Assembly: GCF_020614395.1 (NCBI RefSeq)
Contig: NZ_CP085324.1
Location: 248,001-312,000 of the forward strand
From: Salarchaeum japonicum
GTDB lineage: Archaea; Halobacteriota; Halobacteria; Halobacteriales; Halobacteriaceae
Direction of reading: 5' to 3'
Length of the DNA stretch: 64,000 nucleotides
Below are positions 15,782-43,145 of the stretch, piece after piece. The notes beneath the pieces are model-generated. The model was not told where the DNA came from. It made no database searches and saw nothing but the letters and a program-made list of their open reading frames with translations. A program made the translations under genes and the position numbers. Numbering within the stretch: position 1 is the stretch's first letter; each line of letters starts with the position of its first letter.

Positions 15782-16774
15782 ATGGACACCGTCGCGCTCC
15801 TCCTCGCGGGCGGCACGGGCACTCGACTGTACCCCGCGAGCCGGAGCGACCGCCCGAAACAGTTCCTCGCGCTCGACGGCGAGCGCTCGCTCCTCCGACA
15901 GACCGCCGACCGCGTCGGGTTCGCAGACCACGTCTACGTCGCCACCCGCGAGGCGTACGCCGACCGCGTCCGCGACATCGTCCCCGAGGCGGGCGTGCTC
16001 GTCGAACCCGCGGCGAAGGACACCGGGCCCGCGCTCGCGTACGCCACCCACCGCGTCCGCGACCAGGTCGGCCCCTGCGCGATGCTCTGCCTCCCCAGCG
16101 ACCACCGCGTCCGGGGCGACTTCGAACCAACCGCGGAAACCGCGCTCGCCGCCGCCCGCGACGGCTTCCTCGCGACCGTCGGCGTCGAACCGACCCGGCC
16201 CGCCACCGGCTACGGCTACATCGAACCCGGCCCCGACCTCGGGGACTACCGCGAGGTCGCCGCGTTCCGCGAGAAACCGGGGGAGGAGGCCGCCCGCGAG
16301 TACGTCGAACGCGGCTGGCTCTGGAACGCCGGCATGTTCGCGTGGACGCCCGACGCGTTCCTCGACGCCGCCCGCGACGGCCCGCTCCGCCCGCTCGGGG
16401 ACGCGCTCGACGCCGGCGACCCAGAGCGCGGATTCGAGCGCGTGGACGCCGTGAGCGTGGACTACGCCGTGATGGAAGACACCGAGAACGCCGTCGTCGT
16501 GCCCGCGGGCTTCGACTGGGACGACCTCGGGTCGTGGGACGCGCTCGCCCGCGTCCTCGACGCCGACGCCGACGGGAACGCCGTGCTCGGGGACGCGCTC
16601 GCAATCGACACCGCGGACTCCGTGCTCGCGAGCGACGACACACACGTCACCGCCATCGGCGTCGAAAACCTCGTCGTCGCGGCCTACGACGACCGCGTGC
16701 TCGTCGTCCCGCGTGAGAAGAGCCAGCGCGTCCGCGACGCCGTACGCGCCCTCCGCGAGGACGGCCTGTTCTAG
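15782..16774 (+). CDS. mannose-1-phosphate guanylyltransferase family protein
   Basis: 330 aa. The N-terminus has the nucleotidyltransferase signature LLLAGGTGTRLYPASRSDRPKQF in two parts (LAGGTGTRL, then RPKQFL), and later PATGYGYIEPG and FREKP, as in GDP-mannose pyrophosphorylases. It lacks the C-terminal cupin isomerase domain of bifunctional bacterial ManC. Catalyses sugar-1-phosphate + NTP to NDP-sugar + PPi, probably making GDP-mannose for glycosylation. Leaderless start predicted at 15782. The stop interlocks with tfx by CTAG. Confidence 0.88.
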   Translation: MDTVALLLAGGTGTRLYPASRSDRPKQFLALDGERSLLRQTADRVGFADHVYVATREAYADRVRDIVPEAGVLVEPAAKDTGPALAYATHRVRDQVGPCAMLCLPSDHRVRGDFEPTAETALAAARDGFLATVGVEPTRPATGYGYIEPGPDLGDYREVAAFREKPGEEAAREYVERGWLWNAGMFAWTPDAFLDAARDGPLRPLGDALDAGDPERGFERVDAVSVDYAVMEDTENAVVVPAGFDWDDLGSWDALARVLDADADGNAVLGDALAIDTADSVLASDDTHVTAIGVENLVVAAYDDRVLVVPREKSQRVRDAVRALREDGLF

Positions 16775-17229
16775 TCGGGCGCGACCCGCACCCGCACGTC
16801 CCCCTCACGGGTCACGCCCACCAGCATCGTCGTCTTGACCTCGCGGCCGACGACCGCGTCCCCCGCCGCCTCGCTCACGCGCGTCATCATATCCACGCCG
16901 GAGTACGCGACCTTCACGCCCGCCTCGTCGCACGCGTCGAACACGGCCTCCGGCACGTCGTAGAGGTCGGTGCCCGCCTCGACCTCCACCTGCACCGGCG
17001 CTTCCAGCGCCTCCACGAACGCCACCGTCTCCCGCGCCTTCGCGACGTTCTCCCGCGCCGCCGCCTCCACCTTCGAGATGTTCGCGCGGGACGTCCCGAG
17101 CGAGTCGGCGACGTCCGCCTGCGACAGCCCTCGCTCGCGGAGCGCCAACACCTCCGCCTGCCGGCGCGTCAACGCGCTCTCCGACGCGTCGAACCCCGCC
17201 CGCGCCAGCACGTCCTCGACGTCGCTCAA
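16771..17229 (-). CDS. Tfx-family DNA-binding protein
   Basis: 152 aa. Residues about 18-62 form a helix-turn-helix (LTRRQAEVLALRERGLSQAD, then LGTSRANISKVE) typical of Tfx, first described in methanogens as binding near a formylmethanofuran dehydrogenase operon. The C-terminal domain is the Tfx-specific alpha/beta fold, possibly ligand binding. The start is a TTG at 17229 that overlaps the TRAM gene stop as TTGA, which explains why no ATG is present. Targets unknown. Confidence 0.85.
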   Translation of the reverse strand: MSDVEDVLARAGFDASESALTRRQAEVLALRERGLSQADVADSLGTSRANISKVEAAARENVAKARETVAFVEALEAPVQVEVEAGTDLYDVPEAVFDACDEAGVKVAYSGVDMMTRVSEAAGDAVVGREVKTTMLVGVTREGDVRVRVAPD

Positions 17230-17666
17230 CTCCCCCAGAAGTTCTCCCGACTCCCCAGCCGCGGATTGTCCTCCTCCGCGTCCTCCGCGCCCGACTCGTC
17301 GCCCTCCGCCTCCTCGTCCTCCGACGGCTCCTCGGGCAGTTTCTCGACGAGGTCGGCGCGAGCGTAGTTCGACTTCACGTTCGTCACCTTCGCCCGCACG
17401 CGCGCCGGCGGCAACACGCCGTCCACCATCACGATGAACCCCGTCCCCTCGTGACGGCCCACGCCCGCACCCGACTCGTGCATGTCGTCCACCTCGATGA
17501 CGACCTCCTCCCCCGGAACCACCGGCGCAGTCTTCAGCTCCTCTATCGGCTGATTGTAGTGATTACACCACTCCTTCCCGCCTCTGTCCCCGTAATACTG
17601 ACACCCCATCCCCTCGATACGCTCCGAGAAGCTCGGGCACTCGTCCGCGATTGGACACTCGGCCAT
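17226..17666 (-). CDS. TRAM-domain protein with N-terminal cysteine cluster
   Basis: 146 aa. Residues about 45-105 form a TRAM/OB-like RNA-binding domain (GEEVVIEVDDMHESGAGVGR ... VRAKVTNVKSNYARADLVE). The first 35 residues hold four or five cysteines (C4, C10, C22, C34), a possible zinc site. The C-terminus is acidic and disordered. Small TRAM proteins act as RNA-binding or chaperone-like proteins in archaea. It is the first gene of a two-gene unit with tfx, linked by a TTGA overlap. Confidence 0.85.
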   Translation of the reverse strand: MAECPIADECPSFSERIEGMGCQYYGDRGGKEWCNHYNQPIEELKTAPVVPGEEVVIEVDDMHESGAGVGRHEGTGFIVMVDGVLPPARVRAKVTNVKSNYARADLVEKLPEEPSEDEEAEGDESGAEDAEEDNPRLGSRENFWGS

Positions 17667-17711
17667 ACCACATACTGGCGGCGGCCGCTCTAAAAGCGTT
17701 CCTCACCCACC

Positions 17712-17813
17712 TTTTTACTCTGCGGGTCGCCGGAGGCGACCCCTTGAGTAAAAACCTGGAGGGAAAAAGCCGCTCGCCGGAGGCGAGCGGTGAACCTCGC
17801 GCAGAGCGCGAGG
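17712..17813. repeat. cluster of perfect hairpins with 3-nt loops
   Basis: Three perfect inverted repeats with purine triloops: GGGTCGCC-GGA-GGCGACCC (17724-17742), CCGCTCGCC-GGA-GGCGAGCGG (17770-17790) and CCTCGCGC-AGA-GCGCGAGG (17795-17813). The first is nested in a further 9-bp stem, TTTTTACTC/GAGTAAAAA (17712-17720 and 17746-17754). They lie in the 241-bp gap between divergent genes, so they are not ordinary terminators. Confidence 0.8.
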
Positions 17814-17907: not shown

Positions 17908-20151
17908 GTGGAGTTCACCCCAGTCGTCGCGTGGCTGGGGGTCGTCCTCGCACTCGCCGCCGCTGCCCTCCCCATCGCCGACCGCGTGTTCCGCGGGTTC
18001 CCCGACAGCGGCGCGTCGTTCGCCCCGGCGACGGCCCTCGCCACCGTCACGGTCTCCGCGTACTGGCTCGGCCACCTCGCCTACGGCCGGTTCGTCAGCC
18101 TCGCCGCCGCCGGCGTGTTCGTCCTCGCCGGCGTCGCGCTCTGGGGCTGGCGACGCCCCCGTCTCGCCCGCGCCCGCCTCCCGCTCGCCGTCTTCCTGCT
18201 CGCGTTCACCTTCCTGGTGGTCGTGCGCGCGTACGACCCCGGCATCCACCCGGCGGGCGGCGAGAAGTTCCTCGACTTCGGCCTCCTGAACGTCATCCTG
18301 CGCGCGGACTACCTGCCCCCCGAGGACGTGTGGTTCGCCGGCGAGCGCCTCCGATACTACTACGGCGCGCAACTCGCCACCGCGACGCTCGTCCACCTCA
18401 CCGGCGTCACGCCGAGCGTCGCGTACAACCTCGCGCTCGCCACCTTCTACGCCACGCTCGTCACGGGCGCGTTCGGCCTCGCGCGCGCCGCCGCCACCCA
18501 CGCCGACCAGAACGGAACGCTCGCCGGCGTCCTCGCCGCGTTCCTCGTCGGCCTCGCGGGCACGCTCGCCACGCCGGTTCGCTTCCTGCTCGCGAATCTC
18601 GCGCCCGGGTTCGCGGCCGACCACGCCGCGTTCGCATTCACCGGCATCCGCACCACGATTCCGAACGCCGTCGAAGCCGTCGCCGCCGACTGGTCGTACT
18701 GGCTCGGCCGCTACGTCATCGACGGCACACTGACCGTCTCGCCGTTCTGGGCGTACCTCAACGGCGACCTGCACGCGCACGTCGTCGCCGCGCCCTTCCT
18801 CGTCCTCGTCGCCGCGCTCGCCTACACCGTCTTCCGCGCCCGCGGCCGCGCCCGACTGATTCGTCTCGCCTGCCTCGGCGTCGCCGGCGGCTTCCTCACC
18901 CTCGTCAACACGTGGGGCCTCCCCACCACCGTCGGCATCGCGACGCTCGCGCTCGCGTTCTCCCCGCACACGCCCAGCCCCCGCCGATTCGCGCACCCGG
19001 TCGTTGACGAACTCGCGCGGTACGCCAGCGCCGCCGCCGGCGCGCTCTGCGTCGCCGCGCTCGCCGTCACCACCGCCGCGCCCTTCCTCCTCTTCCACAC
19101 GCCCGTCAACCGCGGCGTCGGCTTCCTCCCGCCCCGCACCGCCCTCGGCCCGCTCCTCCTCGCCTACGGCGTCTTCCTCGCCGCCTTCGCGCTCGCCGTC
19201 CGCCGCTACGACGTCCCGCTCCCCGGCCCCCGGGCTTCGTTCGCCCTCGGCGTCCTCGCGGTCGCGCTCGCGGGCGTCCTGCTCGCGCTCGACCTCGCCG
19301 CCGTGCTCGTCGTCGCCCCGCTCCTCGCCGCCGCCTGGTACGTCCTCCGCCGCCGCACGCCCGCGTTCTGGCTCGTGCTCTGCGTCGCCGGCGCGGGCCT
19401 CGTCCTCGCCGTCGAGTTCGCGTACGCCCGCGTCTACCCGTTCAGTCCCGCCGTCCCCCGCTGGAACACCGTCTACAAGGTCTCCATGCAGGTCTGGGTG
19501 CTCTGGGGAATCGGGGCCGCCGTCGCCGCCGCCGCCGTCCTCGAACACGCCGTCCGCCGCGCCCGCGAACGCGCGCCCTCGCTCGCCGCCGCACGCGCCC
19601 TCGCACCCGCCGCCGTCGTCGCCGTCCTCCTCGTCGGTGCCGCCGTCTTCCCCGCCGCGGCGCTCGTCCAACACCACAACCTCGCCGGCGACGACCCCTC
19701 CCTCGACGGCACCCGCTACGTCGAAACCACCCATCCCCACGAAGCCGCCGCCATCGACTGGCTCGACAGCCAGGTCACCGGCACGCCCGTCCTCCTCTCG
19801 AAACCCGGCCGCACCACGTACACCTGGGTCAACGCGCCGTCCAGCCTCACCGGCATCCCTACCGTCGCCGGCTGGACGCACGAGAAGGGCTACCGCGGCA
19901 CCGACGCCTACGACGCCCGCGCCACCGACGCCGCCTACATGCTCGACGCCGACTGGGACTCCGCCGCCCTCCTCCTCGACTACTACGACGTCCAGTACGT
20001 CTACTACGGCCCGAACGAACGCGCCGCCTACGGCCCCAGCATCTACGACAACCGCACCGGCGTCACCGTCGCCTACCAGAACGAGCAAGTCACCATCTAC
20101 GAAATCGACGCCGACGAAGCCTGCGCCGCCGTCCGCGACACCTGCCCCTGA
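17908..20151 (+). CDS. DUF2298 multi-pass membrane protein (YYY motif family)
   Basis: 747 aa with roughly 14-16 hydrophobic helices and a soluble C-terminal domain (about residues 590-747). The motif LRYYYGAQLATATLVHL matches the YYY signature of the archaeal/Chloroflexi DUF2298 family, which resembles GT-C type glycosyltransferases in layout. A role in lipid-linked sugar transfer or surface polymer synthesis is a family-level guess. It starts with GTG at 17908, after the hairpin cluster. No operon partner on the same strand. Confidence 0.88.
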   Translation: MEFTPVVAWLGVVLALAAAALPIADRVFRGFPDSGASFAPATALATVTVSAYWLGHLAYGRFVSLAAAGVFVLAGVALWGWRRPRLARARLPLAVFLLAFTFLVVVRAYDPGIHPAGGEKFLDFGLLNVILRADYLPPEDVWFAGERLRYYYGAQLATATLVHLTGVTPSVAYNLALATFYATLVTGAFGLARAAATHADQNGTLAGVLAAFLVGLAGTLATPVRFLLANLAPGFAADHAAFAFTGIRTTIPNAVEAVAADWSYWLGRYVIDGTLTVSPFWAYLNGDLHAHVVAAPFLVLVAALAYTVFRARGRARLIRLACLGVAGGFLTLVNTWGLPTTVGIATLALAFSPHTPSPRRFAHPVVDELARYASAAAGALCVAALAVTTAAPFLLFHTPVNRGVGFLPPRTALGPLLLAYGVFLAAFALAVRRYDVPLPGPRASFALGVLAVALAGVLLALDLAAVLVVAPLLAAAWYVLRRRTPAFWLVLCVAGAGLVLAVEFAYARVYPFSPAVPRWNTVYKVSMQVWVLWGIGAAVAAAAVLEHAVRRARERAPSLAAARALAPAAVVAVLLVGAAVFPAAALVQHHNLAGDDPSLDGTRYVETTHPHEAAAIDWLDSQVTGTPVLLSKPGRTTYTWVNAPSSLTGIPTVAGWTHEKGYRGTDAYDARATDAAYMLDADWDSAALLLDYYDVQYVYYGPNERAAYGPSIYDNRTGVTVAYQNEQVTIYEIDADEACAAVRDTCP

Positions 20152-20166: not shown

Positions 20167-21162
20167 TCAGGCGAGCGGCGTGCGCTCGACGACCTGGCCG
20201 TCGTAGGTCGGGTACTGCTCGACGATTTCGCCGTCCTCGACGTCGCCGTCCTCGATCATCTCTTCGAGCAACCACCACGCGACCTCGACGTGGTCGGACT
20301 TCGCGGTGTAGAACTCGTCGGGGACGCCGAGTTCCTCGAAGCGCTCGCGGTCGGCGTACGTCTTCCCGTAGACGAGCGTGCCGTCGTCCGTGACTTCGTC
20401 GAAGTCCCGGCGGATGTTCTCCGCCATGCGCTTCAGGCGGTTGCGGTGCTGGGCAGCGTCCTTGAACACGCTCGTGCAGAAGTACACCTTCTCGTGGCCC
20501 GCCATCTCCTCCAATATCGCGTCCTTCGAGCCGTCCACGGCGCTCATGTGGCCGTCCTGAAGCTCGTAGCCGGCGTCCTGCATGCGCTCGTAGTTCCCCT
20601 GACTCATCTCGAACTCGTTGACGTTACAGAAGTCGGCCGCGCCCTCGTCGAGGAAGTCGAGGAACTCCTGTTCCGCGCGGATGCCCGGAATCTCGAACGC
20701 GGGCGTGAGGCCCTCCTCGCGGGCGATGTAGAGGATGTCCTCCCACTCGGTGCCGTGGAGGTCGCCCCACAGTTCGTACGGCGGGTGGAACCGAATCTCG
20801 TCCAGGCCGGCCTCCGAGAGCCGCCGCATGTTCTCGCGGCCGCCCGTGATACCCGTGTAGAGGTGGGTGTGGTGGTCGTCGCCGAACTCCTCCTTGAGCA
20901 GGCGGAGATACCGGCAGGTCTTGTCCAGCGCCTCCTGCGGTTCGCCGCCCGTGATGGACGTGCCGAGCGCGTCCATCTTCTTCGCCTCCCGGATGATTTC
21001 CTCGTCGTTCTCGACCGGACGCTCGTTCGCGTACGTCTGCGTGACGTTCTTCCGGTTCTCGCCGAGCGGGCAGTAGAAGCAGTCGCGCTGGTCGCAGTAG
21101 CCGTAGACGAACAGCACCATCTTCCCTCCTTTCGCGCACTGCTCACAGCCCTTCGATATCAT
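20167..21162 (-). CDS. radical SAM protein with CX4CX2C cluster motif
   Basis: 331 aa. The cluster cysteines are C23, C28 and C31 (GYCDQRDCFYCPLG), spaced CX4CX2C instead of the canonical CX3CX2C. The GGEPQ motif (SAM binding) follows near residue 72. An extra pair, C6 and C9, sits at the N-terminus. It belongs with the COG2108-type archaeal radical SAM proteins, function unassigned. It would reduce SAM at a [4Fe-4S] cluster to start a radical reaction. Monocistronic; divergent from the DUF373 gene. Confidence 0.9.
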   Translation of the reverse strand: MISKGCEQCAKGGKMVLFVYGYCDQRDCFYCPLGENRKNVTQTYANERPVENDEEIIREAKKMDALGTSITGGEPQEALDKTCRYLRLLKEEFGDDHHTHLYTGITGGRENMRRLSEAGLDEIRFHPPYELWGDLHGTEWEDILYIAREEGLTPAFEIPGIRAEQEFLDFLDEGAADFCNVNEFEMSQGNYERMQDAGYELQDGHMSAVDGSKDAILEEMAGHEKVYFCTSVFKDAAQHRNRLKRMAENIRRDFDEVTDDGTLVYGKTYADRERFEELGVPDEFYTAKSDHVEVAWWLLEEMIEDGDVEDGEIVEQYPTYDGQVVERTPLA

Positions 21163-42809: not shown

Positions 42810-42920
42810 TACGCCGAACTAGCCCGCGAAACGGTAAGTAACCTTTGACACTCCCAGCACGCCCACACGCGGCCGCTGCGCACCCGACACACACCCCGCG
42901 CCGGCCACTCCTCCGCGTCC

Positions 42921-43143
42921 GCTCACGGGTCACTCGCGTTCCCCGCTCGCTCGTTCAGCGGACACGGAGTGTCCGCTCACGCCTCACTTCGTTCAGCGTT
43001 CGCTCGTTCGGGCAACTCTCCGAGTCGCCCTGCTCGCGGGTCGTTCCTCTCCGCTCGCTACTTCCGGGAAATCGAAGATTTCCCGTCCTACTCACGGGTC
43101 GTTCCTCCCCGCTCGCTCGTTCGGGCAACTCTCCGAGTTGCCC
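42921..43143. repeat. tandem array of four linker-plus-hairpin units
   Basis: Four units of 53-58 bp. Each has a conserved linker ending in GCTCGCTCGTTC or close to it, then a 9-bp stem with a 3-nt loop: AGCGGACAC-GGA-GTGTCCGCT (42957-42977), GGGCAACTC-TCC-GAGTCGCCC (43010-43030, one mismatch), CGGGAAATC-GAA-GATTTCCCG (43065-43085) and GGGCAACTC-TCC-GAGTTGCCC (43123-43143). The last ends 2 bases from the argS stop. The remaining 42810-42920 shows only the prf1 promoter. The array fills the 336-bp gap between prf1 and argS. Confidence 0.85.
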
Positions 43144-43145
43144 TG

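Follow-up and report, generated by a model that had tools for sequence, protein, structure and literature searches.

A structured haloarchaeal repeat with T tracts on both strands as a candidate two-way terminator between divergent genes

Why do three perfect hairpins stand between two divergent genes of Salarchaeum japonicum? The original prediction, made on the window (the whole 64,000-nucleotide stretch of DNA analysed here), described stems of 8–9 bp with GGA, GGA and AGA loops, placed them between two promoters rather than downstream of genes, and proposed a regulatory or RNA role. The hairpins are real, and the placement is true of this copy. When the window was shuffled 200 times under a first-order Markov model, no shuffle had three stems of at least 8 bp with 3-nt loops within 102 bp; the maximum was one such stem in 190 shuffles, two in 2 and none in 8.

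Architecture and neighbourhood of the window copy

In order, the element consists of P1 (CCA/TGG), T5, hairpin 1, A5, linker, A5 and hairpin 2; a third hairpin may follow (Table 1). The additional stem around the first hairpin and the resulting 43-bp core, both already proposed, are found at 17712–17754, interrupted by a 3/3-nt internal loop (TGC/CTT). The CCA/TGG pairing and the second A5 (17764–17768) had been missed. Hairpin 2, the following C and a T5 resemble, on the minus strand only, a hairpin-plus-T-run terminator. For P1 of this copy the folding program picks another register, CCC.CC/GG.GGG. The fold z-scores of the 118-nt stretch are -8.28 for plus-strand RNA, -5.94 for minus-strand RNA and -8.15 for plus-strand DNA. 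We also considered a putative U.A-U triple helix on the minus strand, which would engage two T5 and one A5. An Rfam search up to E = 10 returned two sub-threshold matches, neither overlapping the element. Inspection of 17707–17813 by eye revealed neither a GTAG nor a CGTC tag on either strand, and no target-site duplication at the flanks of this copy.

Table 1. Coordinates of the element and of the surrounding genes in the window
Feature	Position	Strand	Remarks
P1 5′ arm CCA	17707–17709	+	partner TGG 17757–17759 (can pair); basis: matched changes in 75 aligned copies, permutation tests, fold
CC spacer	17710–17711	+	3′ of the P1 5′ arm
T5 tract	17712–17716	+	first + strand T5 past the end of the manC-like gene (16774)
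Hairpin 1	17717–17749		outer stem ACTC...GAGT, internal loop TGC/CTT, then GGGTCGCC-GGA-GGCGACCC
Hairpin 1 inner stem GGGTCGCC-GGA-GGCGACCC	17724–17742		8 bp
Outer stem TTTTTACTC / GAGTAAAAA	17712–17720 / 17746–17754		
Inner A5 (- strand T5)	17750–17754	-	pairing with 17712–17716 possible (fold)
Linker CCTGGAGGG	17755–17763		contains TGG 17757–17759, the P1 3′ arm
Outer A5 (second - strand T5)	17764–17768	-	1 base from hairpin 2
Hairpin 2 CCGCTCGCC-GGA-GGCGAGCGG	17770–17790	-	9 bp; GGA loop on +; on - followed by C-TTTTT
TGAA connector	17791–17794	+	commonest type where hairpin 3 adjoins hairpin 2 (10/24)
Hairpin 3 CCTCGCGC-AGA-GCGCGAGG	17795–17813		8 bp; optional in the element family
manC-like gene	15782–16774	+	
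tfx gene	16771–17211	-	convergent with the manC-like gene
TRAM-domain protein gene	17226–17666	-	start codon 45 nt from T5
DUF2298 membrane protein gene	17908–20151	+	divergent from the TRAM gene
Gene 20167–21120	20167–21120	-	radical-SAM-like protein by reading

The genes around the element form two outer convergent pairs that leave no room for a T5: the manC-like and tfx genes, whose 3′ ends share 4 bp (16771–16774), and the DUF2298 gene and its convergent neighbour, which are 15 nt apart. No T5 lies on the plus strand between 16774 and 17712 or on the minus strand between 20167 and 17768, so any read-through from either side would find its first T5 in the element before reaching a promoter; promoters at this site are assigned by position alone. 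Three of the eight runs of at least five T or A outside called genes in the 64-kb window fall in the element.

Another hairpin cluster of the window, at 42957–43143, comprises three perfect 9-bp triloop hairpins, together with repeats of CGGGTCGTTCCTC. It lies within the gap 42810–43145 between two minus-strand genes, and the scan of T and A runs in the window lists no T5 tract for it.

Among the 20 copies in the own genome, only the window copy has gene starts on both sides. In a survey of 26 family genomes, three of them unreadable at this site, the element occupies the TRAM promoter in G000, G001 and G021, with a different linker in G001 and G021; in 20 of the 23 readable genomes no element was seen by eye directly upstream of the TRAM gene (up to 320 nt). 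Farther out from this gene, genome G010 carries a T4 variant.

Copies in haloarchaeal genomes and their positions

Within the own genome (2.34 Mb) a DNA search yielded 12 matches including the window copy, and their reading gave the plan CCACC-T5-hairpin 1-A5-CCTGGAGGG-A5-hairpin 2. The fixed form CCACCTTTTT-N14..44-AAAACCTGGAGG occurs nine times in this genome, three times in the congener, and in 15 of 391 genomes and 4 of 86 genera of the class, with no match for the backward control. A longer form, searched across 84,980 species genomes (a collection from which the own-genome records may be absent), returned 22 stretches, whose titles name only Haloferax, Halobellus or Halospeciosus. With the linker left free, the strict pattern T5-N14..44-A5-N7..10-A5 gives 23 matches in the own genome, which reduce to 20 elements after discarding an AT-rich match and two that were counted twice. 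Similar elements thus exist elsewhere in the genome, contrary to the refuting condition of the original prediction. NGA loops do not define them, as loops differ among copies (TGC, TTC, TCC, GGA and others).

The strict pattern misses copies with T4 or A4 (L002, L003, L004, L006 and others). It matches 24 of the 26 family genomes and all seven genera, with no control match; in the class it matches 117 of 145 genomes and 52 of 58 genera, and the backward control gives 22 matches in 17 genomes. Some single-match genomes may reflect chance (the match in G136 is AT-rich), and in G064, G070, G110 and G136 control matches equal or exceed pattern matches. Tandem copies about 100–180 nt apart are present at L060/L074, L274, G057 C1:919916-920281 and G075 C2:2825416-2825836; at L060 the gene end is repeated as well. 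Among the titles and abstract openings returned from the open-licence literature none describes the element, and we do not claim it as undescribed.

Positions were read for 166 distinct copies with readable flanks, a subset of all matches drawn from the searches and from 80 fetched regions (mostly the first-listed ones of G012, G011, G009, G003, G002 and G007) and including orthologous copies from related genomes. The T5 begins 1–11 nt past a stop codon in 107 of them, a stop being counted when it is the in-frame end of an open frame whose codon use is haloarchaeal. A wider test (stop -3 to 25 nt before the T run) is passed by 110 of 166 copies versus 91 of 3000 random points, and by 8 of 165 on the outer A5 side. 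The stop codons vary (TAA, TAG or TGA). In the own genome the T5 lies 1–9 nt after a stop in 14 of 20 copies. Across the family, T5 stands at gene 3′ ends, as in T-tract terminators; the window copy adjoins no gene end.

Stable-RNA-like ends precede 11 of the 166 copies by script. Two copies (L137 and L152) lie 6 nt behind tRNA genes, for tRNA-Arg and tRNA-Pro, and two more, from two genomes (L133 and L158), 8 nt behind RNase P RNA. Nine copies follow a stretch repeating a tRNA end, with a complete tRNA upstream in six. In these nine (L134, L178, L193, L229, L263, L268, L269, L272 and L278) the stretch of about 110 nt is a direct repeat of the tRNA T arm and acceptor end, is preceded by an inverted T-arm-like copy and is closed by the element; it is possibly a tRNA-linked RNA.

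A minus-strand gene start 35–65 nt away, as at the window copy, was scored by script for 23 of 166 copies in a weak test, which 349 of 3000 random points pass versus 22 of the 56 copies lacking a stop. Of the 110 copies that follow stops, 39 also have a possible gene start 10–80 nt away. Copies L061, L062, L064 and L135 are promoter-side copies before a gene of about 415 codons; for the first three, the encoded protein is GatD-like by reading. The script left 25 of the 166 copies in no position class, and by eye some of these are missed stops (L005, L098) or tRNA-linked (L134).

Pairing, exchange of cassettes and alternative readings

Ahead of the spacer and T tract lie 3–4 nt that are complementary to the linker; the two sides change together, producing the matched types CCA/TGG, GGA/TCC, GCA/TGC, GTA/TAC, GAA/TTC, CCAT/ATGG and CCGT/ACGG. 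At least 3 bp can form in 102 of 114 distinct flank-linker pairs, compared with a mean of 36.6 and a maximum of 54 in 1000 permutations. In an alignment of 75 selected copies, with no linker represented more than four times and hairpin length limited, the three P1 pairs are formed in 92.9% of cells versus 63.1% when shuffled and 25–37% when slid. Cells changed on both sides number 62 (shuffled mean 22.5), and covariation scores 0.671 versus 0.168, with none of 500 shuffles as high; two of the five measures, pairs changed on both sides and pair types, are no higher than in shuffles. These matched changes support the predicted flank-linker pairing. As the search pattern itself fixes T5 and A5, their constancy is no evidence, and pattern matches are uninformative about T5:A5 pairing. 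Among non-pattern copies, L006 and L025 display a matched change (GTTTT/AAAAC), and L022 combines GTTTT with an unmatched A6. Hairpin 2 is present in 109 of 166 copies versus 126 of 830 shuffles, at most 4 nt from the outer A5 in 48 of 166, and hairpin 3 adjoins it in 24 of 166 by script.

The cassette was followed between related genomes by pairing 28 own with 21 congener loci through their flanking proteins. Ten of the resulting 14 pairs were kept; L003/L192 was left out for a weak protein match, and L007/L200, L167/L025 and L086/L191 for having one locus without an element by pattern. Three of the ten orthologous pairs (L002/L187, L008/L201 and L173/L199) carry different cassettes: the whole block of P1, hairpin 1 and linker is different, and the preceding stop codon and following hairpin 2 are alignable by eye. 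The other seven have one flank type. Within these, the window site (L001/L022) has linker CCTGGAGGG here versus TCTGGACC in the congener, L176/L197 and L178/L193 differ in hairpin 1 and share the linker type, and the remaining pairs are alike or nearly so. An identical hairpin 1 is found at two different own loci, L094 and L097. We tentatively propose that P1-T5-hairpin 1-A5-linker-A5 might be a portable terminator cassette, copied between gene ends within haloarchaeal genomes by gene conversion or another route, with several types side by side and with long arms selected as a structure working on both strands, perhaps a DNA cruciform forming a two-way barrier; taken as a whole, this proposal is doubtful, with some chance of being right.

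Spread of this kind could also be the work of a transposase, the element then being a functionless REP-like repeat or miniature mobile element. The dispersal of copies, their inverted-repeat ends, the hairpin 1 shared by L094 and L097, the three of ten site pairs with different cassettes and the tandem copies would all fit. However, position follows gene ends and not one target sequence, as the varied stop codons indicate, and the window copy by reading lacks a target duplication and both GTAG and CGTC, which leaves this account very unlikely. Nearly wobble-free arms invite another explanation, in which a mutational process, namely template switching that would make inverted repeats perfect, and not structural selection keeps the arms and only the T tracts matter. 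Hairpin 2 has 961 Watson-Crick, 1 G.T, 3 A.C and 8 other pairs, and P1 has 480 Watson-Crick, 0 G.T, 7 A.C and 11 other. Nevertheless, specific internal-loop mismatches recur across many copies, and the P1 arms are just 3–4 nt long and about 40–60 nt apart; we regard a purely mutational origin as most improbable.

A small RNA or structured 3′ UTR, whose hairpins would act in stable RNA (for example in 3′ end protection) chiefly on the minus strand, draws on strand asymmetries. Predicted RNA energy is lower on the minus strand for hairpin 1 in 108 of 166 copies (plus strand, 55), for hairpin 1 with P1 in 119 versus 45, and for the hairpin 2 stretch in 111 versus 49. Internal-loop mismatches on the plus strand are CT 157, CC 77 and TT 52 versus AG 13, GG 16 and AA 3, that is, pyrimidine-rich there and hence purine-rich on the minus strand. 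The seven A.C of P1 on the plus strand, which correspond to G.U on the minus strand, with no G.T, show a slight minus-strand preference. Hairpin 1 wobble, on the other hand, is symmetric (42 G.T versus 43 A.C on the plus strand) and shows no strand preference, a disagreement with the folding energies that we have not reconciled. Together with the lack of an Rfam match over the element and the presence of copies behind many different genes and RNA genes, this makes a stable RNA unlikely.

Proposed two-way termination and known systems

We consider that the element is probably a two-way T-tract terminator, used at the window site as a barrier between divergent promoters. Most copies lie right after stops and a few after tRNA or RNase P RNA, which favours a boundary role over regulation of a particular gene or a small RNA. 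The regulatory or RNA role first proposed is partly supported, and the location given with it is correct. A polymerase arriving from the left would reach the T5 at 17712; one from the right would meet a GC-rich hairpin, then the T5 at 17764–17768 and then a second T5 at 17750–17754. Read-through from the outer convergent genes would be stopped before either promoter. The long hairpin between the T tracts would probably hold polymerases that pass the first tract, either as a nascent RNA hairpin or as a DNA cruciform. For Salarchaeum japonicum we infer the termination itself, the read-through and the protection of promoters.

Some findings count against the terminator reading. The promoter-side class of copies is weak, 20 of the 23 readable genomes show no element directly upstream of the TRAM gene, and 25 copies fall in no position class. 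In either direction hairpin 1 comes after a T5, a placement that no terminator model known to us requires. In one Haloferax genome (G056) a T5C tract, behind a gene that we take to be ftsZ2, is without the element. Judged by G056, the one relative in which this stretch was read with a T5, the published T5C example would not belong to the family. In a second genome (G253) the ftsZ2-like stretch has only T4. In favour of termination, the available text of PMC7237163 reports for Haloferax volcanii that a T5C tract stopped 95% of transcripts and that intergenic transcript ends carry a T stretch.

We propose that the element is terminator-like, a variant of the known T-tract terminator that is widespread and structured in haloarchaea. 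It would be an annotatable mark of transcription-unit ends in haloarchaeal genomes, with possible uses as a two-way terminator part and as a natural test set for the contribution of hairpins to archaeal T-tract termination.

Bacterial Rho-independent terminators combine a GC-rich hairpin with a T run directly behind it on that strand. The element is like it on the minus strand (hairpin 2, then C-T5), whereas on the plus strand its T5 precedes the hairpin. REP elements reportedly bear a GTAG or CGTC tag at one end, and this tag is placed at the foot of the palindrome. With REP elements, as treated in the accessible text of a survey (PMC12306157) whose main text contains no term starting with "halo", the family shares dispersed extragenic palindromes in many copies; unlike them, the window copy has no GTAG or CGTC tag, and the position of the element is tied to gene ends. 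Like the T-tract terminator of archaea (T5C of Haloferax volcanii, PMC7237163), the element has a T5 in intergenic DNA behind genes; in the text available, the motif of that study is a T stretch, with hairpins upstream of 503 sites according to a clustering program. As far as the available text goes, archaeal intergenic terminators have so far been T tracts, to which a composite structured element with interchangeable types would be added. Compared with T5C, the element adds possible T5/A5 pairing around a long hairpin, a further helix that covaries and, on the opposite strand, another T5.
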